DNA of 64,000 nt from Siderastrea siderea (lineage: Eukaryota > Cnidaria > Anthozoa > Scleractinia > Rhizangiidae). The stretch spans positions 36,006,601 through 36,070,600 of the forward strand of contig OZ034969.1 in assembly GCA_964030785.1 (NCBI GenBank). The letters are read 5' to 3'. The position numbers were made by a program, and so were the translations under genes. Positions 11,819 to 27,199 of the stretch are shown piece by piece. Within the stretch, counting starts at the first letter, position 1, and the number at the start of each line of letters is the position of its first letter. The notes under the pieces are model-generated. The model worked only from the letters and a program-made list of their open reading frames with translations. It made no database searches and was not told the origin of the DNA.

Positions 11819-13513
11819 TTATGACGCTCTATATTCCATTAATAGTAAGAATTCTTCTCCTGGTGGAAAAAGGGTATTCAATTCCACAATTAAATAACTA
11901 AACGACAGGTTTAAATTGATATTTATTTTTTGTGTTCGAGTTGCATTATTTGAATTAAATAAATGTATTGAATCATTAAAATTTTGAGTGTGTTTTCTAA
12001 TTTTTAATTTAACAAGTGGATATTTATTTTTGTGTTTGAGATAGAAAACTGTTATATTCATTATTTGAACATCGTTTAAAAAGAGTAATTTATCGAAACC
12101 GTTTAATAAAAATGCGTAACCGTTTTTAGTATTTAAATACCCATTTATGTAATGAACGGAACCACTCAAATTATGTCCGTTTAAAGATAAATCTGTTTCC
12201 ATCACCATTTTTCCGTTTTCAATTACAAAAGCGGTGTCATAGACACTTGGGTCAACGTTTGAAATTGTTTCTTTTACACCATAAACAATAAGATGTCCAA
12301 TTGTTAAAAGTGATGGAAAAGTAACTGTACCGTGTAGATTGAGATAAATAAATTGTGGAGGTGAGCTACCCCATCGGTGAAAATTGATAACTGTTTTGGT
12401 ATAGTTTTCGAATGTTTTTGTTGCATAATTAGAAATTGAAATCGTAGTGCCTTGCACTGTCACACTCAACTCACTCATTTCCGGTGGAAACCATTCAACT
12501 ACCAAAGTATAGTATCCAACAGGAAGTTTGAAAAGGTTAAAACCGAGGCGTGATTGGTACTGGTTTGGTGAGCTTTTTTGAAACAGGAGTTTAAGTTGGT
12601 AAGCTTTTTTATTAATTTGATGTGGAGAATTGGGAAAATCAACAATACCCAAAACCTGAATATTTAATTCACTTGAAGATTCGTCGTCGTTTTCCATTAA
12701 ATATCTGAATACATCTTTTTTCCCCGAGCTAGTGATCTGAGATTCATGAATTTTTTGAGTGACAAGATTTCTCAAATCTGTTATTTCATTTTCCATTAAC
12801 TCAACATTAACTGCGGATTTCGAATTTTTTGAATCGGTTTGTAAGTTAATAATTTTATTGTTATTTAAATTCAAGTCTCCCGACATACTTGTCGTGCCAT
12901 CAAGTTTGAGATAATTTTTTTGTGAGTTAGTGATTCTCTGAGTGATATATTCTACAGTAGCAACGTCTTTTTGGTTTACTGGAAATTTAACATTGGTGAT
13001 TGCATTATCTTTCATATCAATAGTAGTGTCCTTATCTAATTTTTTCACAAGCTGATTATCGACATATTTTTTATTTACTCCATGGTCTGAATTAACTGGG
13101 TCTTTGATATTTGTTATGAAATGGTTGTTCATGTCTAAAGATTGTAGCATAGACCCGCCTTCTTTTTTACTCAAGAATATATTCCGGGCTGTATTATAAG
13201 AGATGGCTTTATTTGTGTTTCCATGAATTGGGTACGACTGTGGTTGTAAAATTAGGTCTCCGTTCATAGTTGCTCCTGTCTTTTTCACAAACTGAGTTAT
13301 ATCCACACTTGAAATCTTAGCTATTTCACTATCTAACTGGCTTTTTGTAACCACATCATTATTATTGGTTCCTTGTTTTACATTCACTAATTTTTTATTC
13401 TGCATATTATAATCATTATTAGCATCTAATTTGAATCCAATACCAGGTAAACCTCTGAGACCTCTCGAATTCATAAAATGATTAAAATTCAATACTCCGT
13501 TGTAAAAACTCAT
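11819..13513 (-). CDS. Tail-fibre/spike-like protein of the Polinton (564 aa)
   Basis: The ATG sits in the context TTAATAAATG. After a short collagen-like GLRGLPGIGF segment (about residues 18-27) there are four imperfect repeats of the type hydrophobic-NN-x-I-x-N-h...V-K-x-Y-V: LVNVKQGTNNNDVVTKSQL, FITNIKDPV...VNKKYVDNQL, AITNVKFPV...VATVEYI and IINLQTD. This repeat type is known from bacteriophage tail fibres, where it forms trimeric shafts. The C-terminal 300 residues are beta-rich without a recognised fold and would suit a receptor-binding head. The gene is 11 bp downstream of the ATPase on the same strand, so co-transcription is likely. Role as a virion fibre is inference. A secreted host-like lectin origin for the C-terminus cannot be excluded. 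Confidence 0.7.
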   Translation of the reverse strand: MSFYNGVLNFNHFMNSRGLRGLPGIGFKLDANNDYNMQNKKLVNVKQGTNNNDVVTKSQLDSEIAKISSVDITQFVKKTGATMNGDLILQPQSYPIHGNTNKAISYNTARNIFLSKKEGGSMLQSLDMNNHFITNIKDPVNSDHGVNKKYVDNQLVKKLDKDTTIDMKDNAITNVKFPVNQKDVATVEYITQRITNSQKNYLKLDGTTSMSGDLNLNNNKIINLQTDSKNSKSAVNVELMENEITDLRNLVTQKIHESQITSSGKKDVFRYLMENDDESSSELNIQVLGIVDFPNSPHQINKKAYQLKLLFQKSSPNQYQSRLGFNLFKLPVGYYTLVVEWFPPEMSELSVTVQGTTISISNYATKTFENYTKTVINFHRWGSSPPQFIYLNLHGTVTFPSLLTIGHLIVYGVKETISNVDPSVYDTAFVIENGKMVMETDLSLNGHNLSGSVHYINGYLNTKNGYAFLLNGFDKLLFLNDVQIMNITVFYLKHKNKYPLVKLKIRKHTQNFNDSIHLFNSNNATRTQKININLNLSFSYLIVELNTLFPPGEEFLLLMEYRAS

Positions 13514-13524
13514 TTATTAAATAT

Positions 13525-14169
13525 TCAGATTATTTCAGTAAAATTTTTTGCATTAAATTTTCGTGGCTTATCAACATATAGAAAAGTATATGGTTCATTT
13601 GTTGCTAAGAGATAGTCGTCTTTCTTAACGTTCAATTCTTGACATATCCTACTCTGTTCATTCTTGCTTGGAAAATCGAAAATGCAGTGATGGGAACAGT
13701 TTAATCTGATGGTTTTGTCTGTATTGTAAAAAGACTGAGACAGATAGATACAGCTACAATTTTTATTTCGAGAGTTCGTGAAATAGTTTCGTATTTCTCG
13801 ATCATTTTTCGCTCCAGTGTTCAAGTAATCATCAAAAATGATTAACTTTTGGTTTCCATCATCCATTTCATGTAAAGGAATTATCTCACCATTGCTATCT
13901 TCAATGATATTATAACCATATTTTTTCGAAAGAGGTTCAAATTTTTTCAACAAATATTGATACTTGTTTTGCTGTAAGTTTTTAGCATATAGATAAATCT
14001 TATCAAAAAATAATAGGGGTTTGTTTATCATGTGAAGTAAAAGATTGGTTTTACCACTTCCACTAGGAGCGCAGATTAACATTCTGAAGCATCTATCTGG
14101 CATAAAAGGATATAATTGGGTGAAATTACTGTCTTTATCACCTTTCACATCATAGTTTGGTATTTCCAT
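13525..14169 (-). CDS. A32/FtsK-HerA-type genome packaging ATPase (214 aa)
   Basis: Walker A is APSGSGKT (residues 34-41) and Walker B is KLIIFDDY (108-115), followed by the NSRNKNCSCIYLSQSFYN segment typical of Polinton and large-DNA-virus packaging ATPases (sensor region). Length fits the Polinton family (about 200-250 aa). It would power translocation of the element's DNA into capsids. The start ATG lies in AATAAAATG, 157 bp from the divergent start at 14326 with a repeat-bearing spacer between, suggesting a bidirectional promoter. No sign of decay. Confidence 0.92.
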   Translation of the reverse strand: MEIPNYDVKGDKDSNFTQLYPFMPDRCFRMLICAPSGSGKTNLLLHMINKPLLFFDKIYLYAKNLQQNKYQYLLKKFEPLSKKYGYNIIEDSNGEIIPLHEMDDGNQKLIIFDDYLNTGAKNDREIRNYFTNSRNKNCSCIYLSQSFYNTDKTIRLNCSHHCIFDFPSKNEQSRICQELNVKKDDYLLATNEPYTFLYVDKPRKFNAKNFTEII

Positions 14170-14325
14170 TTTATTAATTCACAACAGAATTTTCCTAAAT
14201 AATTTTATGCGACACGCTATGCGACACGCTATGCGACACGCTATGCGACACGCTATGCGAGCTTTTTTTATATTCAATAACCCATTTTTATTCAAAAAAT
14301 AATATTTTTGTTTCGATTAAATAAA
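14170..14325. promoter_or_regulatory. Divergent promoter region with four 12-bp tandem repeats
   Basis: Between the divergent ATPase and 328-aa genes lie four exact tandem copies of TATGCGACACGC (14206-14253) plus a partial fifth to 14260. They are strikingly GC-rich compared with the surrounding A/T sequence. A bidirectional regulatory role (repeated binding site) is inferred from position and sequence only. Confidence 0.6.
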
Positions 14326-15312
14326 ATGAGTCTCCTCAAGTGGAAAGAAATGGCTGAAAAAAGATCGAAAATAGGCCAAGATGTCAATACTATCAGGGAA
14401 ACGTTAAAACAAAAGAAAATAACCGATACAATGAGTGATGTTGAAGCAGAGAAGCTTTTCAAACCGATAACATCCGGTTTGAAAGAGTTGACACAACCTC
14501 GACCTTTTAAAAGACGGTTGCAAAGGAAAAAAGTAGAGGTTCCAGATTATGGTATCAATATAGATGATGAAGAAATACCAGATTACAATCTTGAAGATTT
14601 GTTTCATGAACCAGAAAATACGAAACAGCTTGTTCCAAAACCACCCTCCTATGATGATGTTCTCAAAGATTTGGAAACAGGAAAAAAGAAAATATATGTC
14701 AATCCTGAGTATATGCAACAACTTGAAGACCCACCAGAATATGAAGAAGATGAAGTTCCAGATTATGAGATTTTTGAAGAAGATAGAATAAATGAGACTT
14801 TAGATGAACTTGGATTGACCAACTATGATGACATTGAAGCACAACTCAAAAGAGAAGATATGACAGAAAAAACAAGACATTCTTTCTTGTCAAAGAAAAT
14901 AGAAAATGCAGCTAAGAAAAGACAACAACTTCCAGGTTACAAAACACACATTACAAAGCAGTTGAATAAAGGTTTGATAAGCCAATCTGAAGCACAGTTC
15001 AGAAGAAAGGTCATCGACGACGCTCGAAAAGTTCTCAACGATTATATCAATTTCAACAAAAATAAGTTGAAGAGTTTCAAAGGTTCCGGTCTCAAAGGAA
15101 AGAAAACAAAACGAGGTGGAAAAACCGTCGCATTTTTCATCAATCCCGAAGAAGCCATCAAAAAATTGGGATTGATAGTTGGATCGATTGATGCCGGAAA
15201 TAATAGCATTGAACTCAGAAACACAGGTGTTGCCATTCTCGATATTTTGTTGAGAAATTACATAATTAGCAAAGATAAATACAACAAAATTTATAAAAAC
15301 TTTTTCATGTAA
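14326..15312 (+). CDS. Unidentified Polinton protein with PPxY and PDY motifs (328 aa)
   Basis: The ATG at 14326 (context AATAAAATG) is preferred over the upstream non-ATG codon. Residues 70-150 are acidic and Pro/Tyr-rich, with three (V/I)PDY motifs (72-75, 84-87, 144-147) and two PPxY motifs (PPSY 106-109, PPEY 136-139). A basic Gly-rich hinge follows (GSGLKGKKTKRGGK, 253-266), then a conserved-looking C-terminal block (LGLIVGSIDAGNNSIEL, ILDILL). I do not recognise an enzyme. Position at the head of the capsid gene run and the PPxY motifs suggest a virion or assembly protein that contacts Nedd4-type ubiquitin ligases, by analogy with adenovirus and retrovirus structural proteins. That is inference. 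Confidence 0.75.
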   Translation: MSLLKWKEMAEKRSKIGQDVNTIRETLKQKKITDTMSDVEAEKLFKPITSGLKELTQPRPFKRRLQRKKVEVPDYGINIDDEEIPDYNLEDLFHEPENTKQLVPKPPSYDDVLKDLETGKKKIYVNPEYMQQLEDPPEYEEDEVPDYEIFEEDRINETLDELGLTNYDDIEAQLKREDMTEKTRHSFLSKKIENAAKKRQQLPGYKTHITKQLNKGLISQSEAQFRRKVIDDARKVLNDYINFNKNKLKSFKGSGLKGKKTKRGGKTVAFFINPEEAIKKLGLIVGSIDAGNNSIELRNTGVAILDILLRNYIISKDKYNKIYKNFFM

Positions 15313-15317
15313 AATAA

Positions 15318-16082
15318 ATGAAGACTACATTAGTTTTATCTTCTCATAACGTGAAGAAACAAACAAAAAATAAACCGAGTGATTTCACAATCAGATATAA
15401 TCAACCAATAATACTTGATCCAAACAGACAATACGAACTCGGTTTAGGCCGAATTATATCCATGTCTTTCACATGGTTCAATATCACATCAAAGTTGAAC
15501 AACCAAAAAATAAAATACTCTTCAGATGGTGGAAAAACTTGGAAAGATATAATCTTCCCACCGGGCACATGGAATTATGTCAGTTTCAATGATTTTATCA
15601 AGCAACAGACAAAAATAACAACTTCAAGCTCGACCACGTATCCAATTACATTGCAATTCAACAACACGACTTTCAAAACAACAGTAAATCTTGCAACAAA
15701 CTACCGACTGGACCTGACAACATCGAATTTTAGCGATCTGATTGGCTTCAACAAACGAATTTTAACCAGTTCAAGTGATGGCGACTACACACCAAATCTC
15801 AGTCAAGATACAGAGATTTTGAACATACATTGTGATCTTATTTCGGAGAGTCTTGTTGATGAACATGAAACGGATATTATTTACACATTTGGAACAAATG
15901 ATTTACAACCATCTTATGCTTTTACCAAAGAGCCATTGAGAGTTCAATATTATCCAGTGAATAAGTACATGATACACACCCTGCGGATTTACATTACCGA
16001 TGGAAAAAGACGAATTATTGATTTAAACGACGCCGATACATCATTTTCTCTGATTTTGAGAGAAAAAAAAAATAACGGTTAA
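15318..16082 (+). CDS. Minor capsid (penton-like single jelly roll) protein (254 aa)
   Basis: The length and beta-rich pattern match the Polinton penton/minor capsid family: N-terminal N-x-PSDFTIRYNQPIIL, the SFTWFNI segment, SSDGGKTWKDIIFPPGTW, and the C-terminal VQYYPVNKY...LRIYITDGKRRIIDL. The start follows the previous stop by 5 bp within AATAAATG, so the two genes are tightly packed. Such proteins fill the icosahedral vertices next to the major capsid protein. It is directly in the expected order before the small basic protein and the major capsid gene. There are no transmembrane or enzymatic motifs. Confidence 0.85.
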   Translation: MKTTLVLSSHNVKKQTKNKPSDFTIRYNQPIILDPNRQYELGLGRIISMSFTWFNITSKLNNQKIKYSSDGGKTWKDIIFPPGTWNYVSFNDFIKQQTKITTSSSTTYPITLQFNNTTFKTTVNLATNYRLDLTTSNFSDLIGFNKRILTSSSDGDYTPNLSQDTEILNIHCDLISESLVDEHETDIIYTFGTNDLQPSYAFTKEPLRVQYYPVNKYMIHTLRIYITDGKRRIIDLNDADTSFSLILREKKNNG

Positions 16083-16091
16083 TTATAAAAA

Positions 16092-16520
16092 ATGATCGTG
16101 AATGATTACAAAAGAATTTATCATCCAAGTCTTGGAAGATTCGTTTACAAACACATTGGATCAGGTTTGATTGTGGACAATATTTTCAAACCGGTTAAAA
16201 TGATTGCGAATAAACTTTTGAAACCCGTCGCTAAAAAAGCTTTAAAATCGGGAATAGAAAGTGCCGGCGACAAAATTGGTAAAAAAGTTGTTGAAAAAAT
16301 TGCTGAAAAATCTGGCCATCTTTTCATAAAAGACCTTCAGAAAAAAAATCCCAAATCAACAAAGAAACAAAAAGGGAAAGATTTTGATGAAATTTTGGAC
16401 GGATTGGTTTCCGGAAAACAAATTCCAAAACAAGAAGATTACAACGTATTGTTGAATAGAATGATTTCTGGAGAGGGGTATAAAAAAAACAAAAAACAAA
16501 AAAAAGTTTCATTAATATAA
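16092..16520 (+). CDS. Small basic virion-type protein (142 aa)
   Basis: Lys-rich (many KK pairs) with an N-terminal DYKRIYHPSLGRFVYKHIG segment, an amphipathic middle (KMIANKLLKPVAKKALKS, AGDKIGKKVVEKIAEKSG) and a C-terminal ISGEGYKKNKKQKK. The ISGEG tract fits the adenain-type cleavage consensus (M/I/L)xGx|G at residues 125-129 and would separate a basic tail. Position between penton and major capsid genes, plus basic charge, suggest a core or DNA-condensing/minor capsid role comparable to small adenovirus core proteins. I do not recognise the exact family. The stop is directly followed by the next ATG. Confidence 0.75.
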   Translation: MIVNDYKRIYHPSLGRFVYKHIGSGLIVDNIFKPVKMIANKLLKPVAKKALKSGIESAGDKIGKKVVEKIAEKSGHLFIKDLQKKNPKSTKKQKGKDFDEILDGLVSGKQIPKQEDYNVLLNRMISGEGYKKNKKQKKVSLI

Positions 16521-17810
16521 ATGACTTTCAGAACAAGTGATAAAGTACAAAGATATGAACTGGTTAGATTCTCTCTTGACAATATCATCGAACAACCCGG
16601 AAACGATAATTCTCAAAATAAAACAGGATATAAATTCACAATAACGGACAGATCCACCCTTTTCGATTATTTCAACGGGTATTTTGAGGTGACAAAAGAA
16701 CTTCAAAAGAAAGCCGATGGATCGGGTTTTGCGGCGGCCGATCGAATTTCAATGATCAATGGGTCACATTCTCTCATCAAGCATATGGTCATTAAATCTG
16801 CCGGTAAAACAGTTTATGATAGTGACAATATTCACAGAGTTGTAAATGTCAAAAATTTGTTGGAATACGGTGATGATTATAGCAGATCGGTGGCAAAAAA
16901 TAGTTTTTGGTATCTTGACACGGAAAATTCAACGGCAAATACGAATTCTGGTTTTGAACAAAGGCGACTTTTAACTCAGGCAAAACAGAACAATGGTGGT
17001 GGAGGACCGAGAAGCGTGAATGAGATCATTCCATTGAATAGATATAGTTTCTTTGAGGAATTGGAAGACAAAATGCTACCTCCAATGCAGCTCACTTTCG
17101 AACTGGACTTGAATGATGATGATGAATTGATTCACAAAGCGGCCGGTGCAGATGATGGAAGAGTTGTCGTCAAAAGATTTTATCTTTGGCTTCCAAAAAT
17201 AGTCCCGAAAGATAGTGTTTACAGCGAATTTGTGGAAGATTTTCTCAAACCGACCAAATGGATGTATATGAAAGACATGTATATTCAGAGTGCGAATACA
17301 AGAGCTATCCAAAACATGTTTCAAATTAGTCCGGCCATCGACAATGTTGAACATGTATTCATTTATCTGCAGAGAGACAATGGTCCTAACAATGAGGAAT
17401 CCGAAAGGACCCCCTTCATTTTTGATACTTTCAAGCTGAATGCAGCCGATACCAATAGCTCTCTTGCATCGTGTCGTTTGGAGTATGGAAACAGTACTTT
17501 TTATCCTGAATTGGAGTATGATGCAGATTCGAAATCAAGAATCTTCAACGATTTAATGTCTTATGCTTTCAGAAAGAATGATGTGAAAACAGGAACGCAG
17601 TTAAACATTCACAATTTCACATCAATTTACGGTCTTGTTTATTTCGATCTCACTTATCAAAAAGAGTCTGTCACAAGGGATCCAAAACAACTGATTTTGA
17701 ACTACAGATTGAATGTGGCGCCGGCAGCCGATGTGAGAGCTCATGCCATTGTATTTTACAAAAATGAGATCATTGTCAACAAGGTTGGAAATGAACTCAT
17801 GATTGTTTGA
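16521..17810 (+). CDS. Major capsid protein, double jelly roll (429 aa)
   Basis: The start is in TATAAATG immediately after the preceding stop. The sequence matches the Polinton major capsid pattern: N-terminal YELVRFSLDNIIEQPGND, the RSTLFDYFNGYFEV segment, central SGFEQRRLLTQAKQN and EIIPLNRYSFFEELEDKMLPP, and C-terminal DLTYQKESVTRDPKQLILNY. Family knowledge: these proteins form trimeric double-jelly-roll capsomers building an icosahedral shell. The frame is intact. The last 20 bp of the gene and the following spacer are duplicated 515 bp downstream, evidence of local unequal recombination. Confidence 0.92.
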   Translation: MTFRTSDKVQRYELVRFSLDNIIEQPGNDNSQNKTGYKFTITDRSTLFDYFNGYFEVTKELQKKADGSGFAAADRISMINGSHSLIKHMVIKSAGKTVYDSDNIHRVVNVKNLLEYGDDYSRSVAKNSFWYLDTENSTANTNSGFEQRRLLTQAKQNNGGGGPRSVNEIIPLNRYSFFEELEDKMLPPMQLTFELDLNDDDELIHKAAGADDGRVVVKRFYLWLPKIVPKDSVYSEFVEDFLKPTKWMYMKDMYIQSANTRAIQNMFQISPAIDNVEHVFIYLQRDNGPNNEESERTPFIFDTFKLNAADTNSSLASCRLEYGNSTFYPELEYDADSKSRIFNDLMSYAFRKNDVKTGTQLNIHNFTSIYGLVYFDLTYQKESVTRDPKQLILNYRLNVAPAADVRAHAIVFYKNEIIVNKVGNELMIV

Positions 17811-18540
17811 TTTGAAAAAATTCGTGAATTTATTTTATTTCGTTTAAATAAAATAAATGGAAACAGAACTACATGAAATAAATGTCACACTTTCAAAGTA
17901 TCAGAAAGAAAAAATTTGTAAAGCTTTTCACAACCGTGAAAAAATCTTACTGAGGTTGAAAAATGATGCCCTCAGAGGAAGTGATACTCTTCTTGTTCCT
18001 TCAAAGTCATTAAAAAGGATGAAAGATGATGCCCCCAACGGAAGTGATACTATTCTTGATAAATCAACTTTCATTGAAAGGTTGGAAAATGGTACTCTTT
18101 TTGTAAATTCAACGACCGATGAAAGGATGGAAAATTATTGTCTTCTTTTTCATCCAACGGTTGTTGAAAGGTTGGAAAGTAAACGAAAGAATGAGTATAA
18201 AGGAATGACAATATTTTTGGATTATTCATTAATAACTGACTTAACAAAAGATTCTGTCACTCGGAATATAGAAAAACTGATTGAATGTGGCGCCGACTGC
18301 CATTGAACTCATGATTGTTTGATTCGAAAAAATCGTGAATTTATTTTATTTTCATCAATAAAATAAAATGTCTACAGAACTACATGAAATAAATGTCACA
18401 CTTTCTGATTTTCAGAAAATGAAACTTAGTAAAGCTTTTCACAACCGTGAAACAATCAAACTGAGGTTGAAAAATGATGCCCTCAGCGGAAGTGATACTC
18501 TTCTTGTTCCTTCAACGATCGTTAAAAGGTTGGAAAAGAA
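17791..18540 (+). repeat. 515-bp-period tandem segmental duplication
   Basis: The block beginning with the 3-prime end of the major capsid gene (GAACTCATGATTGTTTGAT), the A/T-rich spacer with ATAAA(A)TG start, and the first 50 or so codons of the next gene is present twice, starting at about 17791 and 18306. Copies differ by scattered substitutions and small indels, so the duplication is not brand new. It created the paralogous pair 17857-18306 and 18368-19171. Confidence 0.85.
17857..18306 (+). CDS. Short paralogue of the following core/membrane-type protein (149 aa)
   Basis: The N-terminal 50 or so residues (TELHEINVTLS...QKEKICKAFHNRE...LRLKNDALRGSDTLLVPS) match the start of the next gene closely. 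Downstream the protein instead carries three degenerate repeats of a KDDAPNGSDTILDKSTFIERLE-like unit (only parts conserved: ND/DD, GSDT, hydrophobic, RLE/RME) and lacks the glycine-rich, hydrophobic and PPxY parts. Its stop lies next to the duplicated capsid-gene tail. It is probably a neofunctionalised or decaying duplicate, with function unknown. The frame and the start signal (AATAAATG) are intact, so expression is plausible. Confidence 0.65.
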   Translation: METELHEINVTLSKYQKEKICKAFHNREKILLRLKNDALRGSDTLLVPSKSLKRMKDDAPNGSDTILDKSTFIERLENGTLFVNSTTDERMENYCLLFHPTVVERLESKRKNEYKGMTIFLDYSLITDLTKDSVTRNIEKLIECGADCH

Positions 18541-19171
18541 CCGCAATATGAATAAAGGAATGGAAATAAAACTGGCCAAGACCAATATCAGAAAACAGGT
18601 CGGTGGTTCACTTTTGAGTTCAATCTTGTCACTCGGTCGAACTTTCGGACCGACATTGGCAAAAACACTGGGATTGTCGGCTCTCGCCGGTGTCGCTTCC
18701 GAAGGAGCATCTCAGGTTGTGAAAAAGATATCCGGTGGTTCGCAAACTGGCGGTTTCCTCATTCCAAATTCTAAAATAGATCAACTCATCGCAAATAAAC
18801 ATCTCTTGAGTGAAAAACAAAAAAGAGATATTATCAATGCAATCCAAACCGGTTCCAGTGTTCATATAAAACCAACAAAAAAACAAACTGGTGGTTTTCT
18901 CGGCACTCTTCTTGCGTCGATCGGTGTTCCACTCGCTCTTGAAGCTTTCAAAAAGATGGTGGGTGGTTCAGGAGGAGTTCCAAGAATTGGAAAACCCCCT
19001 TTGAAAGATGGCGGATCGGCTCCCAGAATGGGAATATATCAACCACCGCCTCCATTTTATGGAACATGGGAAAACTTTGGCGGAGGGAAAAAAAAAAAGT
19101 CGGGGGAAGGGTTACTACTTGGGAAAAACAGTCCATTCAAAGGGATTCCACTGTTGGGATCAATTCTTTGA
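18368..19171 (+). CDS. Core/membrane-active-type virion protein with cleavage sites and PPxY (267 aa)
   Basis: Domains in order: N-terminal module (LRLKNDALSGSDTLLVPS, residues 32-49); a Gly/Ala/Leu hydrophobic stretch (GGSLLSSILSLGRTFGPTLA to LAGVASEGA, 79-115) that could be amphipathic; a second hydrophobic stretch (GGFLGTLLASIGVPLALEAF, 175-194); then a Pro-rich tail with PPFY (228-231) and a conserved-looking end GLLLGKNSPFKG. ISGG|S (121-125) and MVGG|S (197-201) fit the adenain consensus (M/I/L)xGG|x. The combination of amphipathic region, adenain-type sites and PPxY parallels adenovirus protein VI, a membrane-lytic capsid protein, but no homology is claimed. A run of 11 A at 19088-19098 lies in the overlap with the protease frame. 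Confidence 0.72.
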   Translation: MSTELHEINVTLSDFQKMKLSKAFHNRETIKLRLKNDALSGSDTLLVPSTIVKRLEKNRNMNKGMEIKLAKTNIRKQVGGSLLSSILSLGRTFGPTLAKTLGLSALAGVASEGASQVVKKISGGSQTGGFLIPNSKIDQLIANKHLLSEKQKRDIINAIQTGSSVHIKPTKKQTGGFLGTLLASIGVPLALEAFKKMVGGSGGVPRIGKPPLKDGGSAPRMGIYQPPPPFYGTWENFGGGKKKKSGEGLLLGKNSPFKGIPLLGSIL

Positions 19172-19680
19172 AATTCCTCAAAAATGTGCCATTGAGCAAT
19201 CACGATTTGATAAAATGGTGCCAACATCTCGGAATTCCAATTGACAAAGGTGGTGTTTTATCAAGAGAACAAACTGTTCCACACAACCACAAAATGGCGT
19301 TTTTCATTTACAATCTTGAGCCGTCGTACATGAGTGGAAGTCATTGGGTCGCAACATTTGTAAAGGATGGGAGAATCAATTATTTCGACAGTTTTGGGTT
19401 GCCACCATTTCAAGAAATTGTGAATCATGCAGAGAAAAAGAATCTCACTCTGATTCATCAAAATAACCAGATACAAGATTTGGGTACAACCACTTGCGGA
19501 TATTTTTGTTTATACTTTTTGAATGAGATGAACAAAGGTTCATCGTATTTCGACCTTTTGCAAGTCTTTGATGTTAATGATACCATGAAAAATGAGAGAT
19601 TCATTGAAAGATATTTTGAAAAAATTTCCCACCATATTGTAAATGAAAACATATTGCGTAAAACAAAGAAAAGAAACTGA
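19066..19680 (+). CDS. Adenain/Ulp1-like cysteine protease (up to 204 aa)
   Basis: Catalytic elements: GSHWVATF (His93), YFDSFG (Asp108), IQDLGTTTCGYFC (Gln137, Cys144), numbering from the ATG at 19066. This is the Polinton maturation protease family, expected to cleave virion proteins at (M/I/L)xGx|G or (M/I/L)xGG|x. The frame overlaps the preceding gene by 106 nt in the -1 frame. The conserved domain seems to begin near residue 43, with no other Met before it, so the protein is made either from this ATG (which lacks the A/T start context of its neighbours) or by -1 frameshifting at the A AAA AAG heptamer 19093-19099. Confidence 0.88.
   Translation: MGKLWRREKKKVGGRVTTWEKQSIQRDSTVGINSLKFLKNVPLSNHDLIKWCQHLGIPIDKGGVLSREQTVPHNHKMAFFIYNLEPSYMSGSHWVATFVKDGRINYFDSFGLPPFQEIVNHAEKKNLTLIHQNNQIQDLGTTTCGYFCLYFLNEMNKGSSYFDLLQVFDVNDTMKNERFIERYFEKISHHIVNENILRKTKKRN
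19093..19099 (+). promoter_or_regulatory. Candidate -1 ribosomal frameshift heptamer A AAA AAG
   Basis: In the frame of the 267-aa gene the codons read GGG AAA AAA AAA AAG TCG, so A|AAA|AAG is correctly phased for tandem -1 slippage. The -1 frame is the protease frame, open to 19680. An extra phased A AAA AAA lies three bases upstream. I could not identify a strong stimulatory stem downstream by eye. Confidence 0.45.
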
Positions 19681-19795
19681 GTGCGTTGAACCCTCAGGAT
19701 ATAAATATGCAAAAAACGGTCGACTAATGTTCTTTTGCACATGTGCTGAATGTGGAATAACTAAAACTAGATTCGTGAAACAAACGGGAAACTAA
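19681..19795 (+). pseudogene. Orphan zinc-ribbon-like fragment
   Basis: A frame without a good start (only internal ATG at 19727) reads ECVEPSGYKYAKNGRLMFF and then CTCAECGITKTRFVK before TAA at 19793-19795. The KNGR...C-x-C-x2-C...T-K-T-x-F-V pattern resembles the second half of short viral zinc-ribbon proteins that occur next to this position in related elements. The first Cys pair appears missing, so it is probably a remnant. Alternatively it is an extension of the protease by +1 shifting. A GC-rich hairpin (GCCCG...CGGGC) lies just after it at 19799-19818. Confidence 0.4.
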
Positions 19796-19830
19796 TTCGC
19801 CCGTCTGAAGGGGCGGGCATTCTGAATACG

Positions 19831-20442
19831 ATGGCATCCACTGGTACTGATATGTTAATTCACCACGGTATTCCTTGGCTTGGAAAAAAAGCAGTTGAAA
19901 TGGGAAGATATTACGGTAGTGAAGCACTAAGGAACCCAAAACTGCAGAAAAAGGCTCTCGATTATGCTTTGGAAAGAGCGGCTCCTTTTATTCAAAAAAC
20001 AGGATCGGAAATGCTTGATCAATTGTCCACTAAAATCAGACCGAATAAAAAGTATAAAACAGACAGAAAGGATTTGGACGGTGGAAGTTTAGATATACAT
20101 AAAGCCATTGGAAAACTCCCTAAACCCAAAGGGGGTTGGACTCTTCCAGGACATCGATACACAGGTCCATACAACGATCTTGAAAATCAGGTGAGATGGA
20201 ATCCAAAAACGGGAGAGATTCTCGAGATTTTTGACAAACCAACCGGCAGAACTGATGCCGTGTCGATGCAACACGATGTCGATTATTCGGTTTGCAGAGA
20301 CGATAAAAAATGCAAAAACAAAGCCGACAGGAAAATGGTCAAAGCTTTGGATTCTGTTCCTTATAATGAGAGACAATGGGGTCATTGGATGGCACGAAAT
20401 ATGATTAACACAAAGCAAAAACTTGGTCTTGGTTTAAACTGA
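19831..20442 (+). CDS. Parvovirus-type phospholipase A2 capsid-associated protein (203 aa)
   Basis: C-terminal half has the secreted/parvoviral PLA2 signature: calcium-loop-like GHRYTGPYN (residues 107-115) and catalytic His-Asp in DAVSMQHDVDY (142-152), then the end KQKLGLGLN. In parvoviruses this domain breaches endosomal membranes during entry; similar genes occur in some Polintons and adintoviruses. The calcium loop has Tyr (YTGPY) where the usual YxGxG has a second Gly. The N-terminal half is helical and basic, and LDGG|S (82-86) fits the adenain consensus, so the enzyme domain could be released by cleavage. The ATG context (ATACGATGG) differs from most genes here. A T TTA AAC heptamer precedes the stop codon. 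Confidence 0.85.
   Translation: MASTGTDMLIHHGIPWLGKKAVEMGRYYGSEALRNPKLQKKALDYALERAAPFIQKTGSEMLDQLSTKIRPNKKYKTDRKDLDGGSLDIHKAIGKLPKPKGGWTLPGHRYTGPYNDLENQVRWNPKTGEILEIFDKPTGRTDAVSMQHDVDYSVCRDDKKCKNKADRKMVKALDSVPYNERQWGHWMARNMINTKQKLGLGLN
20433..20439 (+). promoter_or_regulatory. Candidate -1 ribosomal frameshift heptamer T TTA AAC
   Basis: The phospholipase frame ends GGT TTA AAC TGA, placing T|TTA|AAC in exact phase and directly against the stop. Slipping -1 makes the next codon CTG at 20439, which is the integrase frame, open without a stop from there to 21392. TTTAAAC is one of the established efficient -1 heptamers. Stimulatory downstream structure was not resolved by eye. Confidence 0.65.
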
Positions 20443-21392
20443 AAAGGCCGTCGAGTGAAGAAAACTGGCAAGAAAAATTAGCTGATGAGCTTCATAAACC
20501 GATAAAGCGTAACTTCACCCGGCGGCGGGTAATTGTAAACCATATTGACGAGACATGGTGTTCAGATATTGTTGAGATGCAAAAATTCAGTCGATGGAAC
20601 GCTGGCTACAGATATCTTCTCATGGTACTCGATGTGTTTAGTAAATATGGTTGGATCGTTCCATTAAAAGATAAAAAGGGTGAAACCGTTATGAATGCAT
20701 TCAAAACAATATTCAAAGAGGGGCGTAAACCACAATATATTTGGACAGATAAAGGCAAAGAGTATTATAACAAACATGTTAAGGAACTACTTGATAAGAA
20801 TAAAATAACCTTATACTCAACTGAGAATGAGGAAAAGTCGTCAGTTTGTGAAAGATGGAACCGTACAATCAAAACCAAGATGTGGAAGCAGTTTACTGTT
20901 CAAGGTAATACACAGTATCTTGAAATGTTACCCAAATTAGTGAAACAGTATAACAATACCAGACATTCAAGCACAAAGATGACACCTACAGAAGCGAGTA
21001 AAAAGAAAAATGAAGGAGTTGTTTACTTTAATCTGTACGGTGATATGGAAACATCAAGGCAAAAACCAAAGTTTAAAGTCGGTGATAAGGTAAGAATATC
21101 TAAGTACAAACGTCCTGTCTTTGACAAAGGATACACAGCCAATTGGACAGAAGAAGTTTTCACAGTTGACAAGATACAATACACCAATCCGATCACTTAC
21201 AGACTCAAAGATCTCAGTGGTGAGGAGATATCAGGTTCTTTTTATGAACAGGAGATGCAGAAGGCTGTTCAAGACGTTTACCGTATTGAGAAAGTGATTA
21301 GACGAGACGCTCGAAAAGGTAAAGCTTTGGTGAAGTGGAGCGGTTACCCAGAAAAATTCAATTCCTGGGTAGATATTAATGATCTAATGTGA
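20439..21392 (+). CDS. Retroviral-type integrase with C-terminal chromodomain (INT), probably expressed by -1 frameshift
   Basis: The frame is open from inside the phospholipase gene. The first ATG (20577) lies four codons after the first catalytic Asp (CSDIVEM, Asp codon at 20565), so starting there would remove an essential residue and the conserved DELHKPIKRNFTRRRV lead. The other catalytic residues are Asp in WTDKGKEYYN and Glu in SSVCERWNR, 33 residues between. A basic SH3-like region follows (KVGDKVRISKYKR), then a chromodomain (VYRIEKVIRR...ALVKWSGYPEKFNSWV) that may direct insertion to marked chromatin. It would insert the element with 6-bp duplications. The start given is the first -1 codon after T TTA AAC. 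An unannotated intron is the alternative explanation. Confidence 0.85.
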   Translation: MKRPSSEENWQEKLADELHKPIKRNFTRRRVIVNHIDETWCSDIVEMQKFSRWNAGYRYLLMVLDVFSKYGWIVPLKDKKGETVMNAFKTIFKEGRKPQYIWTDKGKEYYNKHVKELLDKNKITLYSTENEEKSSVCERWNRTIKTKMWKQFTVQGNTQYLEMLPKLVKQYNNTRHSSTKMTPTEASKKKNEGVVYFNLYGDMETSRQKPKFKVGDKVRISKYKRPVFDKGYTANWTEEVFTVDKIQYTNPITYRLKDLSGEEISGSFYEQEMQKAVQDVYRIEKVIRRDARKGKALVKWSGYPEKFNSWVDINDLM

Positions 21393-21435
21393 AAATGAAT
21401 TTAAAAATATTTTCTTATTATATAATAAAAATAAA

Positions 21436-21744
21436 ATGACAACATTCATGACTTATCAAGAAATTCGAAAAATAGCGGTTGGAAAAAAAATCAAAAATGC
21501 ACAGAAGCTCTCAAAAATAGAGCTGGTAAAAGTGTTAAATCTTGATGAAGGAGTGTTATACAAACCAACAGGGAAGGAGGTGTTGATTACCAATGTTGAC
21601 ACACAGGTTGTTACAAAATGCAAAAGCATCTATCAGTGTTCAAAAGTATTGGGTAAAAAATACGGTTCGATTCATTATTACGTAAACTGTGGAAATGAGT
21701 TTGTGGATAAGAATGGAAATAAGGTAATATTATCTTTTGCTTGA
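21436..21744 (+). CDS. Small unknown protein, SAP-like plus NUMOD1-like (102 aa)
   Basis: The start is in AATAAAATG. The N-terminal 35 residues (YQEIRKIAVGKKIKNAQKL, then SKIELVKVLNL) resemble a SAP-type helix-extension-helix DNA-binding motif. Residues 60-98 (KCKSIYQCSKVLGKKYGSIHYYVN, first 20 enough to see the pattern) resemble the NUMOD1 helix-turn-helix motif found beside homing endonucleases. No nuclease motif is present, so a DNA-binding role is the most that can be suggested. The polymerase N-terminus has a similar SLKKLSKSKLIKLL helix, which may reflect shared ancestry. Confidence 0.6.
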   Translation: MTTFMTYQEIRKIAVGKKIKNAQKLSKIELVKVLNLDEGVLYKPTGKEVLITNVDTQVVTKCKSIYQCSKVLGKKYGSIHYYVNCGNEFVDKNGNKVILSFA

Positions 21745-21818
21745 ACTTTTTCATTTCGTGAAAAGTGAAATGAAAAAATATTTAAAAAATATTGTTATAC
21801 AATAAAATAAAAAGAAGA

Positions 21819-24800
21819 ATGGATTCACAAACAGAAATGAACAAAGCTAGTTTGAAGAAACTTAGCAAATCAAAACTTATCAAATTGCTTCTGAAGCAGG
21901 AGAAGAAGAAGCTAGTTCCAATACCAAAACCATATGTACCAACACCTCGTAAGAGTGTCAAACAGATGGCTAAAAAATATGAAGAAAACATCATTCTACC
22001 ACCTCCAGAATTCAGGGATGATTACAAACCAGTTCCAGCACAAAGGACTTATAAACCAAGACCATATGTACCAACACCTCGTAAGAGTGTCAAACAGATG
22101 GCTAAAAAATATGAAGAAAACATCATTCTACCACCTCCAGAATTCAGGGATGATTACAAACCAGTTCCAGCACCTAGAACTAAGAAACTATTGGATAAAT
22201 TAATTCCAGCGCCTAGAACCAAAATAGAACAAACAAACAAAGCTTTAAAAGGTTACACTAAGTCTTATGAAATCAGCATCAAAAACAATGAAGACCCCTT
22301 AGCCCAAATGCAAAACACGAGAAAGGCTATAGAACATAATGTAATAGCTTTGTTGAATGAGATGAAAGGCTTGAAATACGTTGAAACGTTGAAGATTACG
22401 TTTGAAAAACAGAATGGAGACAAGTTGATTGAAAAGGAAGCTTATTTCAATGCAAAGCCACAAACAGTAACAAATGATGCAGATATTGATAACTTGTTGC
22501 AGATAACACAACAACAGATTGTAAATATGATTCAGCAATGGATTTCAGAAGGATCAGCATGGACAATTAAATCGGTTGATGGTCATTTCATCAATGTTGT
22601 AAAGTACAGACCACTCAGAGGTTCTTCATATATTCCATTACCCAAAGAGCTGCGAAACCCAGCTAAAGGGATTATAAACATGAAAAATAATGACAATGAA
22701 TGTTTTCGTTGGTGTCATATTCGTCAGCTATTGCCACAAAACGAAAATCCACAGAGAATAAAAGAGTGTGATAAAAAATATGTAGAAAAATTGGATTACT
22801 CGGGAATCGAGTTTCCCGTTTCTGTGAAACAATACAACAAAATAGAGAAACAGAATAATATTCGTGTTAATGTCTTCGGTTATGAGGAAAGGCAACCGTA
22901 TGTGATTTACGTTTCAAAAGAAAAGTTTAACTCTTGTTTGAATCTACTCTTAATAACCAGGGGAGAGGTGAAACATTATTGTTTAATAAAGGATTTCAAT
23001 AAATTTATGCACAGTCAAACGAATCACAATGGAAGAAAGCATTTCTGTATGTACTGTCTTCAATGTTTAAGCTCAAAAGAGCATCTTGAAAAACACAAAG
23101 TTGATTGTATTGAAATTAATGGGAAACAAGCCATTAAAATGCCAGAATCTGGATCAAAAATTGCATTCAGAAATTATCATAAACAGTTACCAGCACCTTT
23201 CGTGATTTATGCTGATTTTGAAGCCATCACCGAAAAAGTTGATGAGAAAGCTCCGCAAAAATCCTGCACCGAAAAAGTTGATGTGAAAGCTCCGCAAAAA
23301 TCCTACACCAAACAATATCAAAAACATACGGCTTGTGGATATGGTTATAAAGTTGTTTGCTGTTATGACGATAAATTTTCAAAACCAATTAAAATTTACA
23401 GAGGAGAAATGGCCATTCACAAGTTTATGAAGGATATGTTGGCTGAAGTTAAATACTGTCAAGAGGTTGTAAAAACCCACTTCACAAAACCTCTCGAAAT
23501 GACAGACGAGGATGAGGAAAGTTTCCAAAGAGCTGAAGAATGTCACATCTGCAAGAAACCTTATGACACAAGTGATGTTGGAGTAAGAAATGTTGGAGTA
23601 AGAAATGTTAAAAATGTTAGAATAGGAAATGTTAGAGTAAGAGATCACTGTCATATCACCGGCAAATACAGAGGCTCAGCACACCAAGTATGTAATCTAA
23701 ATTTCAAATTGACTAATAAGATACCTGTGGTGTTTCACAATCTCAAGGGGTATGACAGTCACTTTATAATGCAAGAGATTGGTGATATTGTGAAAAAGAA
23801 TGCGTATATTGATAAAGAAGGAAAGGAACATGAGATGAAAATAAATGTCATTCCCTGTAACATGGAGAAATACATGGCCTTCATGTTGGGTCAATACCTT
23901 GTGTTCATCGACAGCTTTCAATTCATGAGCTCGTCATTGAGTGATTTGGTGAATAATCTTCCTGTTGAAGAGTTCAAACACACGGGACAAGTATTTCAAG
24001 GTAAAAAATTGAGTTTGATGACAAAGAAAGGTGTCTATCCTTATGACTATATGAATAGTTTCAAAAAGTTTGAGGACAACAGGTTGCCGAAGAAAGAAGA
24101 TTTTTTCAGTATTATGAATAATGAACATATCACAGATAAAGAGTATCAACATGCACAGAATGTTTGGAACGAATTTGGTCTATCATCAATGGGAGAGTAT
24201 CACGATCTATATCTCAAATCGGATATTTTGTTGCTGACTGATGTTTTTGAAAATTTCCGCAAAGCATGTCAACAATACTATGGATTGGATCCTGCTCATT
24301 ATTTCACATCACCCGGTCTGAGTTGGGATGCAATGTTGAAAATGACAAAAACTGAATTGGAGTTGATTAGTGATGTTGATATGTTTCAATTCATTGAAAA
24401 AGGTATGCGTGGGGGGATCAGTTACATTGCCAATCGATATGGAAAGGCAAACAACAAGTATATGGAAAACTACAATCCGGAGGAGGTATCAAAATACATC
24501 ATGTATCTGGATGCAAATAATCTTTATGGTTGGGCAATGAGTCAATATCTTCCAACAGGTGTGTTCGAATGGTTGACTGAGGAAGAGGTGGATTTATCCA
24601 AGTATAATGATGAGTCTGAAAAAGGATTGATATTAGAGGTTGATTTGGAATATCCAGAGGAGTTGCATGATCTCCACAACGACTATCCACTGGCCCCTGA
24701 AAAAATCAAAGTAACTAAAGATATGTTGTCACCTTATTGTCGAGAAATTGCTGAAAAATTTAAAGTAAAGGTTGGACTGGTTGAAAAGTTGATACCAACG

Positions 24801-25757
24801 TTGCTAAATAAAGAGAAATATGTTTTGCATTATCGCAACTTGCAACTCTATATGTCTTTGGGGTTGAAACTGACAAAGATTCATAGAGCTCTCGAATTCA
24901 ATCAGAGTCCATGGTTGAAACCTTACATCGATTTTAACACAAAAAAGAGAGCAAAGGCAAAGAACTCTTTTGAAAAGGATTTTTTCAAGTTGATGAACAA
25001 TTCGGTATACGGAAAGACGATGGAGAATCTGAGAAAGCGACAGGACATCAAACTTGTAACCGATGAAGAAAACTTTTTGAAATGGACCAGCAGACCGAGT
25101 TTCATAAGCAGTAAAATATTTAATGAGGATTTAGTTGCCATTCATAAAATCAAACCAACTTTAACATTGAACAGACCGGCATATGTTGGAATGTGCATCC
25201 TAGACTTATCAAAAACATATATGTATGATTTTCATTACAATTACATCAAAAACAAGTACGGTGACAAAGCTAGGTTGCTGTTCACAGATACTGACAGTCT
25301 AACATATGAAATTGAAGCAGATGATGTTTATCAAGATTTTTGGAAAGACAAACATCTATTCGATAACAGTGATTATCCAAAGAATAGCCCGTTTTTTGAT
25401 AACTCAAACAAGAAAGTCATTGGAAAAATCAAGGACGAAGCAGAAGGAATACCAATCGTGGAGTTAGTTGGTTTGAGGTCAAAAATGTATTCTTACATCA
25501 AGGACAATAAAGAGGGAAGTCGCACAGCAAAGGGAATAAAAAAGAATGTGATAAAACAAAAAATACGACATAAGAATTACAAAGATACGCTTTTCAACAA
25601 AAAACAGATGCGTCACTTGATGAGACTAATCAGAAGTGAAAAACATCAAATTGGTAGCTATATGGTGAATAAAATATCACTCAGCTGCTTCGATGATAAA
25701 AGATATATTCATAAAAATGGTGTAACAAGTTATGCTTACGGTAATAATAAAATTTAA
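21819..25757 (+). CDS. Protein-primed family B DNA polymerase (1312 aa)
   Basis: Start chosen at the first ATG (MDSQTEMNKASLKK). Features: a SAP-like N-terminus; a Pro-rich linker duplicated exactly (111-bp copies at 21931 and 22063); a C2H2-type finger (FCMYCLQC...HLEKHKVDC, about residue 410); exonuclease motif YADFEAI (Asp466, Glu468); an inserted Cys/His cluster (CHICKKPY...RDHCHITGKYRG...CN); exonuclease HNLKGYDSHF; polymerase motif A YLDANNLYGW (Asp898); motif B LMNNSVYGKT (Asn1060); motif C FTDTDS (Asp1157, Asp1159). It replicates the element with 3-prime to 5-prime proofreading, using protein priming at the terminal repeats. The last 30 codons lie in the right terminal repeat. All catalytic motifs are intact. 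Confidence 0.95.
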   Translation: MDSQTEMNKASLKKLSKSKLIKLLLKQEKKKLVPIPKPYVPTPRKSVKQMAKKYEENIILPPPEFRDDYKPVPAQRTYKPRPYVPTPRKSVKQMAKKYEENIILPPPEFRDDYKPVPAPRTKKLLDKLIPAPRTKIEQTNKALKGYTKSYEISIKNNEDPLAQMQNTRKAIEHNVIALLNEMKGLKYVETLKITFEKQNGDKLIEKEAYFNAKPQTVTNDADIDNLLQITQQQIVNMIQQWISEGSAWTIKSVDGHFINVVKYRPLRGSSYIPLPKELRNPAKGIINMKNNDNECFRWCHIRQLLPQNENPQRIKECDKKYVEKLDYSGIEFPVSVKQYNKIEKQNNIRVNVFGYEERQPYVIYVSKEKFNSCLNLLLITRGEVKHYCLIKDFNKFMHSQTNHNGRKHFCMYCLQCLSSKEHLEKHKVDCIEINGKQAIKMPESGSKIAFRNYHKQLPAPFVIYADFEAITEKVDEKAPQKSCTEKVDVKAPQKSYTKQYQKHTACGYGYKVVCCYDDKFSKPIKIYRGEMAIHKFMKDMLAEVKYCQEVVKTHFTKPLEMTDEDEESFQRAEECHICKKPYDTSDVGVRNVGVRNVKNVRIGNVRVRDHCHITGKYRGSAHQVCNLNFKLTNKIPVVFHNLKGYDSHFIMQEIGDIVKKNAYIDKEGKEHEMKINVIPCNMEKYMAFMLGQYLVFIDSFQFMSSSLSDLVNNLPVEEFKHTGQVFQGKKLSLMTKKGVYPYDYMNSFKKFEDNRLPKKEDFFSIMNNEHITDKEYQHAQNVWNEFGLSSMGEYHDLYLKSDILLLTDVFENFRKACQQYYGLDPAHYFTSPGLSWDAMLKMTKTELELISDVDMFQFIEKGMRGGISYIANRYGKANNKYMENYNPEEVSKYIMYLDANNLYGWAMSQYLPTGVFEWLTEEEVDLSKYNDESEKGLILEVDLEYPEELHDLHNDYPLAPEKIKVTKDMLSPYCREIAEKFKVKVGLVEKLIPTLLNKEKYVLHYRNLQLYMSLGLKLTKIHRALEFNQSPWLKPYIDFNTKKRAKAKNSFEKDFFKLMNNSVYGKTMENLRKRQDIKLVTDEENFLKWTSRPSFISSKIFNEDLVAIHKIKPTLTLNRPAYVGMCILDLSKTYMYDFHYNYIKNKYGDKARLLFTDTDSLTYEIEADDVYQDFWKDKHLFDNSDYPKNSPFFDNSNKKVIGKIKDEAEGIPIVELVGLRSKMYSYIKDNKEGSRTAKGIKKNVIKQKIRHKNYKDTLFNKKQMRHLMRLIRSEKHQIGSYMVNKISLSCFDDKRYIHKNGVTSYAYGNNKI

Positions 25758-26097
25758 CTGAAGATTTTGGGGAAAATACGTTTGTATTCTCGGGCGAAAA
25801 TTTTGGGAAAATTTGGCTAGGTGCGCTCGCGTGCTTTTATCAGTCAAGTGTGTGTGAAGTTTCTTGGAGATTTCATATAAATTTTATATGAAATTGTGGG
25901 TATATTTCGCCAACTGCATTCGTATACTTTGACTGGAAATATTTCTCTTTAATTTGACTGAAGATTTGACTAGGTGTGCTTGTATACTTTGACTGGAAAT
26001 ATTTCTCTTTAATTTGACTGAAGATTTGACTAGGTGTGCTTGTATACTTTGACCGAAGATTTGACAGTGTTCCGGAATTCCCATTTTATAAACTACT
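25669..26097 (-). repeat. Polinton right terminal inverted repeat (429 bp)
   Basis: Reverse complement of 10984-11412. It includes the polymerase stop codon at 25755-25757, both 60-bp tandem units and the 25-bp palindrome, ending in CT followed by the target duplication. Confidence 0.95.
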
Positions 26098-26103
26098 GAA
26101 GCT
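26098..26103. repeat. Polinton target site duplication, right (GAAGCT)
   Basis: Second copy of the 6-bp duplication. Reading through it from the left LINE fragment restores the ORF1 frame. Confidence 0.95.
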
Positions 26104-26754
26104 GAGGTTTCGACAAAATGTGACATCGAAGCCGTTAACAAAAGAATTGACACGTTGGACGAGAAGCTAACTAATTCTCCAACTGTACCAGCAATTAAAG
26201 ATCAAATGGACAAATTCAGTAGCCAATTACTTCAACTCAGGAAAAAACAGGAAGAATTAGCTGCACTTCAAGAACAGCTAAAAACGAAAGATTTATACTT
26301 GGAGGCATACTCGCGTCGCGAGTCTATCAAGTTCGTAAACATTCCCGAAGAAGATGAAAGAGAAGACACCGAAGAAATAATTCGCGGCTTCCTCGAACGG
26401 GAGCTCGGTTTCGTGGAAGCTGGAACAGTTGAAATACAGAGAGTCCACCGTGTCGGAAAGAATACCAGTGAAAGCATAAGGCCGAGAGCAATCCTTGCTA
26501 AATTCCTTAGAGCCAAGGATTGTGACAAGATTCTCTCATTGGGTTTTCGCCTTCGTGACACCGATTTTCAGATGTACAGAGATTTACCACGGGAGATCGT
26601 CACGAGGAGAAAAGCACAGATGGCCATTTTAAAGAAAGCAAGGCAGCATAAGGTTCACGCAGTGTTTAGTAAGGCCGAGCCAGATAAGTTGTACATAGGT
26701 GGAAAGTTCTGGCCGGTAGGCAAACCGTTTGACATCGAAGAGCTGGATTCCTAA
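26104..26754 (+). pseudogene. LINE ORF1, 3-prime part
   Basis: This 217-codon remainder (stop included) is in frame with 10687-10983 once the Polinton and one duplication copy are discounted, giving about 315 residues, the normal L1 ORF1 size. It continues the coiled coil (QLLQLRKKQEELAALQEQL), then shows the L1-type RRM region (AYSRRESIKFVNIPEE, VEIQRVHRVGK) and the C-terminal domain (FSKAEPDKLYIGGKFWPV). Without the upstream ATG it has no proper start now. Confidence 0.85.
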
Positions 26755-27199
26755 ACTAGGACGATGTGGAGAACTTTAAGACATTTTCTATTTTTTCAAC
26801 CGGAACATTTGCACTAAAATATAAGGTAAACATCATTTATAAGAAGCTATGAATGCTTATTTAATTTACGCACTTAATTATAAGGGCCGGGGGTCGCACT
26901 AATCCATACAGATTGCGCCTTTACTAACTATTGCTTGGATCCGGTGTCACAGCGGATTTTGTCCCCCCGCCGATTTTGTCCCCCCGGACCAAATCCGCTA
27001 GCGGATATTGTCCCCCCGGACAAGCTTTAACAGTACTTTACTGGCTGTGATTCATACTTTTTCTTATTTTAAGTAGAATGTTTTTTTCTGTTGTATTTGT
27101 CTTTATGTGGGCCATTAAGTCAGTCAATAATTTTATTATGCTTTTTGAACACAACAACTTTCGAGGAAACGCAAATTTAAATAATTATAAGCTGGAATA
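26755..27199 (+). other. LINE inter-ORF spacer with GTCCCCCCG repeats and hairpin
   Basis: No reading frame. Three copies of a TTGTCCCCCCGG-like word occur at 26959-27018. Between the last two is a near-perfect inverted repeat at 26986-27013 centred on the exact 14-bp palindrome ATCCGCTAGCGGAT. The tract is far more GC-rich than the rest of the LINE. Its role is unknown; it could be a small palindromic insertion or a structure helping ORF2 translation. Confidence 0.6.

Follow-up and report, generated by a model that had tools for sequence, protein, structure and literature searches.

Introduction

Programmed -1 ribosomal frameshifting at the gag-pro and gag-pol junctions of retroviruses (MMTV, HTLV, HIV) involves a slippery heptamer of the form X XXY YYZ, a spacer and an RNA structure. 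The canonical -1 slippery heptamers include T TTA AAC and A AAA AAC, and the coronavirus frameshift site consists of U UUA AAC with a pseudoknot as the stimulator.

In adintoviruses, the available text of PMC11071296 describes hypothetical -1 frameshifts in Penton and Hexon-Adenain, with slippery sites near the 3' ends of the ORFs. A parvovirus-type phospholipase A2 (PLA2) domain is present in a capsid-like protein of Sf Maverick 1 and 2, according to the portion of PMC5803895 available. Frameshifting between PLA2 and integrase (INT) is not reported in the accessible parts of PMC12567637, PMC12721341 and PMC10120064, and no description of it was found in the titles and abstract openings of the open-access papers that matched. 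Here, we compare with these systems a PLA2-INT junction from the coral Siderastrea siderea, located in a 64,000-nucleotide stretch of DNA that was analysed as a whole and is referred to as the window.

Results

The Element and Its Genes

The window contains a Polinton/adintovirus-type element with the following main features:

10984-26097, + strand: Polinton/adintovirus-type element, with ends AGTAGTTTATAAAATGGG..CCCATTTTATAAACTACT
18368-19171, + strand: ORF 5' of the protease, no family match above the cut-off
18943-19680, + strand: protease frame, adenovirus (adenain) type by a borderline match, PF00770 with E = 0.0015 and 18.7 bits against a cut-off of 21.3
19831-20442, + strand: PLA2-like ORF (zero frame), PF08398, ATG at 19831, motif MQHDVDY at 20266
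20439-21392, + strand: INT in the -1 frame, rve core PF00665 and C-terminal chromodomain PF00385

The element is complete, with AG..CT ends, a 6-bp target duplication (GAAGCT, at 10978-10983 and 26098-26103) and terminal inverted repeats at 10984-11505 and 25576-26097, whose 522-nt arms are 97% identical. It includes a packaging ATPase of the A32 type (Pfam PF04665, E = 2.4e-10) and a 1312-residue ORF (21819-25757) with a DTDS motif, which we take to be a polymerase motif (protein-primed DNA polymerase B); the polymerase families gave no match to this ORF at E ≤ 1. The C-terminus of this probable DNA polymerase sits in the right terminal inverted repeat (25576-25757). The ORF at 18368-19171 is probably a virion protein, judged by its position only. 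It adjoins another ORF, at 17857-18306, and the two have a similar N-terminus, TELHEINVTLS, because of which they look like paralogues. The candidate ORFs of the element gave no informative family match for a double jelly-roll capsid protein, and there was no reverse transcriptase among the ORFs listed for it.

The element interrupts sequence that appears LINE-like from its ORFs at 10687 and 26206-30427. In this flanking sequence, at 10687-10995 and 26206-30908, inspection by eye suggested ORF1-like pieces on both sides of the element and a reverse-transcriptase-like ORF at 27200-30427.

The PLA2-INT Junction

The junction between the PLA2-like ORF and INT comprises the following features:

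20376-20408, + strand: INT-frame ATG (20376) 5' of the heptamer, closed by TAA at 20406-20408
20433-20439, + strand: T TTA AAC, a slippery heptamer phased for a -1 shift and read as TTA AAC in the zero frame
20440-20446, + strand: spacer of 7 nt, opening with the PLA2 stop codon TGA
20447-20460, + strand: 5' arm of the predicted stem, starting 7 nt after the heptamer
20513-20526, + strand: 3' arm of the predicted stem, overlapping the CGG CGG CGG run at 20520-20528

A preliminary description of this DNA had stated that the PLA2 frame (19831-20442) ends in GGT TTA AAC TGA and that the integrase lies in the -1 frame, open to 21392. Both statements were confirmed from the sequence, and the heptamer has the right phase for a -1 shift. 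The INT frame, -1 relative to PLA2, is open from 20409 to 21392; its first catalytic Asp (Asp1) is encoded at 20565, with no ATG between the TAA at 20406 and Asp1. The description had also placed the first ATG, at 20577, after the Asp codon. This is correct for the sequence after the last INT-frame stop, but it overlooked the earlier, TAA-closed ATG at 20376.

When the protein sequence of the PLA2 tail was kept fixed, 11% of synonymous recodings had some in-phase slippery heptamer, and 8% had TTTAAAY at the stop, so that a single heptamer in the window is only mildly surprising. Among the 892 slippery heptamers in the window (both strands), that at 20433 ranked fifth by stem score. The four heptamers that outranked it come from two other places in the window, and the top score belongs to a long hairpin that follows an A-run, at 46753-46830.

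Conservation of the Heptamer in the Host Genome

Two sets of copies were collected from the host genome. With INT of the window as the query, 125 of 3544 candidates were scored and 80 were fetched, making a first set of 81 with the window; with P0083 as the query, 118 were scored and 40 more divergent copies, picked for diversity, were fetched as the second set. The -1 relation was found in 116 of the resulting 121 INT junctions (the window and 120 copies), and in all 116 an in-phase slippery heptamer was present just 5' of INT (A AAA AAC in 65, T TTA AAC in 50 and T TTA AAA in 1). All 81 junctions of the first set had both the -1 relation and the in-phase heptamer (TTTAAAC 49, AAAAAAC 31, TTTAAAA 1), located 48 or 51 nt upstream of the ADEL codon. 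The second set had the -1 relation in 35 of 40 copies and the heptamer in all 35 of these (AAAAAAC 34, TTTAAAC 1), at a distance of 45, 48 or 51 nt from the ADEL codon downstream; one AAAAAAC copy had a second phased heptamer. The remaining five comprised three in-frame fusions, L096, in which the PLA2 frame is shifted, and L124, which lacks the PLA2 motif.

As a control, 420 nt (140 codons) of upstream PLA2 sequence in the 81 copies of the first set contained 4 in-phase heptamers, with 93 and 10 in the two other phases. Compared with 4 in 81 × 140 upstream codons, a recurrence of 116 in 116 is more than would be expected by chance; all of this junction DNA comes from one genome, of whose candidates a part was fetched, and the copies share ancestry and hence are not independent. 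Alignment of the junction had been proposed as a check on the conservation of the heptamer and its phase, and within this genome both were retained in every -1 copy, in two canonical forms.

In the TTTAAA group, 93 of 131 PLA2 third positions varied, compared to 1 of 7 positions in the heptamer, 1 of 7 in the spacer and none of 14 in the 5' arm of the stem. Since the 5' region of INT also has low diversity overall, the low diversity of the heptamer is weak evidence on its own. The interchange between T TTA AAC and A AAA AAC, which changes the INT residues (FKL versus KKR), argues against conservation at the protein level alone; in the A-type copies, a role as a Lys-rich localisation signal could still contribute to the retention of KKR.

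Two rival explanations bear on these counts. An old single-ORF fusion might have been broken by an indel, through decay or sequencing error, and fusions do exist in relatives while some copies (L096) look decayed. However, the same -1 relation recurs in 116 of 121 junctions, each of the 116 with its heptamer, and the window element has open ORFs and 97% identity between its inverted repeats; decay would require the same indel phase in every lineage, and we regard it as scarcely credible. Initiation at a non-AUG codon such as the CTG at 20439, a near-cognate with A at -3, is extremely improbable: of the 31 first-set copies with A AAA AAC, 25 have CGG or CGT at this place and just one of the 31, L085, has CTG, and such a start would have no need of a phased heptamer.

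INT-Frame ATG Codons and In-Frame Fusions

No ATG preceded Asp1 in the open INT frame of 83 of the 116 -1 copies (62 of 81 in the first set and 21 of 35 in the second). An ATG was present 5' of the heptamer, in open frame, in 25 copies (13 and 12, respectively), and only between the heptamer and Asp1 in another 8 (6 and 2). Related elements with an in-frame ATG before the Asp and no slippery site had been named as evidence that would speak against frameshifting; here, all 25 + 8 ATG-bearing copies of the 116 keep the heptamer. The heptamer was lost in two of the three in-frame fusions from the host genome: L106, with a broken run, and L107, with a deleted linker, have no phased heptamer. The third, L105, has a longer A-run (A7), in which A AAA AAA matches the phase of the fused frame.

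The ATG codons raise the possibility that the integrase is made from its own AUG overlapping PLA2 (20376 or its homologues), on a transcript that starts inside PLA2. The ATG at 20376 is flanked by A (-3) and G (+4), an upstream ATG in open frame occurs in 25 of the 116 copies, and internal promoters are common in DNA viruses. Nevertheless, in the window the 20376 frame is closed by the TAA at 20406, the open frame lacks an ATG before Asp1 in 83 of the 116 copies, and the copies that have one keep the heptamer too. Initiation at an own AUG, which accounts for neither the stem nor the fused ORFs, thus appears very unlikely.

A Predicted RNA Stem 3' of the Heptamer

The stem predicted in the window has 14 positions, with 13 pairs and one A-C mismatch. 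The fold of 20440-20540 had an MFE of -25.1 (z = -2.16), and 5 of 200 dinucleotide shuffles were equally stable. With the INT protein fixed and the codon usage of the element, 2 of 2000 synonymous recodings reached this MFE and none of 2000 reached the stem score. Permuting the segment's own codons gave an MFE as good in 395 of 2000 cases and a stem as good in 104 of 2000, indicating that the use of rare GC-rich codons accounts for much of the signal. CGG makes up 4% of Arg codons; of seven CGG codons in the surveyed ORFs, three form the run at 20520-20528, at the 3' arm. Folding of 20440-20520 had been suggested beforehand; a strong stem does start 7 nt downstream, but its 3' arm (20513-20526) extends past that range. 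No candidate for an H-type pseudoknot came up 3' of the heptamer as far as the search extended.

At least 12 of the 14 pairs were kept in 105 of the 115 fetched -1 copies from both sets, with the 3' arm placed by best match. In the first set, 12-14 of 14 pairs were kept in 64 of 73 distinct junction rows and not in the other 9 (10 copies, of the L065 type); the heptamer columns of this row alignment were unusable, because the aligner had shifted the A-runs. Differences from the window were mostly on the 3' side and kept or improved the pairing (A-C to A-U in 40, G-C to G-U in 34 and 9, and U-G to U-A in 17), and there were two pair-breaking cells in the comparison. Changes on both sides, from G-C to A-U, occurred at two pairs in four copies (L093 and L129; L113 and L119), the second of the two compensated pairs adjoining a 3-nt length difference. 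As read from these alignments, the covariation of the predicted stem is compensatory but thin.

The ten L065-type copies (L065-L068, L070, L071, L073-L075 and L078) keep A AAA AAC, but have a different linker, without the conserved long stem. Their local hairpin is marginal: its stability was equalled by 52 of 1000 recodings over 48 nt and by 699 of 1000 over 99 nt. Except in these ten, the copies have a spacer within the 5-9 nt expected for -1 frameshifting, followed by a structure that is predicted to be stable.

A connection of INT to PLA2 or to an upstream exon through a small intron or alternative splicing seems highly improbable. The host is a eukaryote, which allows for splicing, but splicing gives no reason for a conserved heptamer, phase and spacer, and the available text of PMC8097293 reports intact vertebrate Mavericks to be free of introns.

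Fused and Split Homologues

PLA2 and INT Pfam domains occurred in one protein in 32 of the best 120 of 5845 INT matches. Among the matches listed, these single-ORF fusions are 428-562 residues long, and the named organisms are Stylophora and Oculina. The apparent TTG/GTG starts and short overlaps suggest that the listed fused homologues are unspliced ORF calls, probably from a bacterial-type caller. Reading the N-terminal Met residues of the database INT proteins as ATG was considered and dropped, since two-frame decoding probably puts many of them on TTG or GTG.

At the place of the heptamer, 40 of the best 120 stand-alone PLA2 proteins end exactly in LN*, another 7 continue beyond LN, 66 carry xKN and 7 carry other residues. 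By two-frame decoding, the N-termini of split INT proteins correspond to a -1 reading of the DNA that encodes the PLA2 tail, over 37 of 37, 38 of 38 and 19 of 19 codons in the best pairs; for the opposite frame relation, the best alignments matched at most 9 codons among the rows listed. Of 20 N-termini decoded, 18 gave A AAA AAY or T TTA AAY, and 2 (P0074 and P0094) gave the non-canonical C TTA AAY. These 20 had been chosen for the motif: a first attempt decoded 13 of 22, after which the undecoded P0098, P0100 and P0111 were dropped, P0021 was added and local conflicts were relaxed. Because of this choice, and because near-complete PLA2 partners were available for only 9 of the 20, the decoding is weaker than the DNA evidence; it constitutes all of the junction evidence from other genomes. 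In two Stylophora proteins (P0104 and P0118) outside the decoding set, which left out the rows from P0104 onward, the frames look different by eye.

A tree of INT with 108 rows required 18 changes between the fused and split states, at least 13 of which were forced by well-supported branches; 13 of 121 rows had no usable core and were left out, and at least two fused rows (P0012 and P0071) were mislabelled. A search of viral contigs with the window INT and with the INT alignment gave no relative. A search of genome contigs found two distant Polintons, L001 (a Limnohabitans MAG contig) and L002 (a Bathymodiolus symbiont contig), in which the arrangement before INT differs; in L001, a different ORF lies upstream and an ATG occurs in the INT frame well ahead of the core. 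The Polinton-like genes in these contigs, labelled as bacterial MAGs, are probably host contamination.

A Candidate Slippage Site at the Protease Junction

The protease frame is -1 relative to the ORF at 18368-19171 and has an ATG at 19066 in the window copy. The overlap contains one further feature:

19088-19098, + strand: A11 run where ORF 18368-19171 and the -1-frame protease overlap, with A AAA AAA (19090) in phase

Among 21 loci (the window and 20 further copies, L131-L150), the junction was in the -1 relation in 18, +1 in 2 and in frame in 1, and an in-phase A AAA AAA was present in 17 of the 18 -1 junctions. In 10 of the 21 loci, the open protease frame lacks an ATG 5' of the match. Slippage at this A-run could possibly be transcriptional as well as ribosomal.

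Discussion

The proposal of the preliminary description, that the integrase is made as a PLA2-INT fusion by programmed -1 frameshifting, draws support from the phased heptamer in 116 of 116 -1 copies, the stem and the fused relatives. On this sequence evidence, we consider it very probable that -1 programmed ribosomal frameshifting at the heptamer yields the fusion beside free PLA2. Ribosomes would start at the AUG at 19831 and translate the PLA2-like ORF, and most would terminate at the UGA at 20440, releasing free PLA2. A fraction would slip back by one base at the heptamer, which is U UUA AAC here and A AAA AAC in other lineages, aided by the stem 7 nt downstream. Reading on in the -1 frame, these ribosomes would produce a PLA2-integrase fusion of ≈520 residues (203 + 317), a predicted size within the 428-562 residues spanned by the natural single-ORF fusions. 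If the analogy with Gag-Pol of retroviruses holds, slippage would set a low integrase:PLA2 ratio, and the integrase may enter the virion with the genome. We infer the slippage, its efficiency and the virion role of PLA2.

Together with the protease junction, this arrangement suggests a programme like that of gag-pro and gag-pol, in which the processing enzyme (the adenain-type protease) and the integrase would each be made only or mainly as a -1 fusion to the probable virion protein that precedes it, at the A-run and at T TTA AAC / A AAA AAC respectively, and both be packaged at low stoichiometry. We see the case for such a programme as evenly balanced; if true, it would be either convergent with retroviruses or an ancestral parallel to them.

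Frameshifting at the PLA2-INT junction would give a testable expression mechanism for the integrase in a major class of eukaryotic virus-like elements. It would account for the many integrase ORFs in this group that have no start codon, make the "split" annotation of the gene predictable, and predict a PLA2-integrase fusion that may enter the virion, a parallel to Gag-Pol in a double-stranded DNA lineage. If confirmed, retrovirus-style expression of the integrase would be a novelty among DNA elements of this kind.

The locus resembles the retroviral gag-pro and gag-pol junctions in having a phased heptamer at the end of the upstream ORF, a spacer and RNA structure, and an enzyme (protease or integrase) downstream in the -1 frame. 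It differs in that it belongs to a DNA element, that the upstream partner is PLA2-like rather than Gag, and that the listed ORFs include no reverse transcriptase. The heptamer is identical to that of coronaviruses, where the stimulator is a pseudoknot, whereas a stem with a long loop is predicted here. The Sf Maverick 1 and 2 proteins share the PLA2 domain, but there it is part of a capsid-like protein, and the available text of PMC5803895 mentions no integrase fusion. The adintovirus Penton and Hexon-Adenain sites come from the same virus group and are likewise slippery sites predicted toward the 3' ends of ORFs, with an adenain fusion among them; the accessible text of PMC11071296 does not name PLA2-INT among these genes and contains no conservation test.
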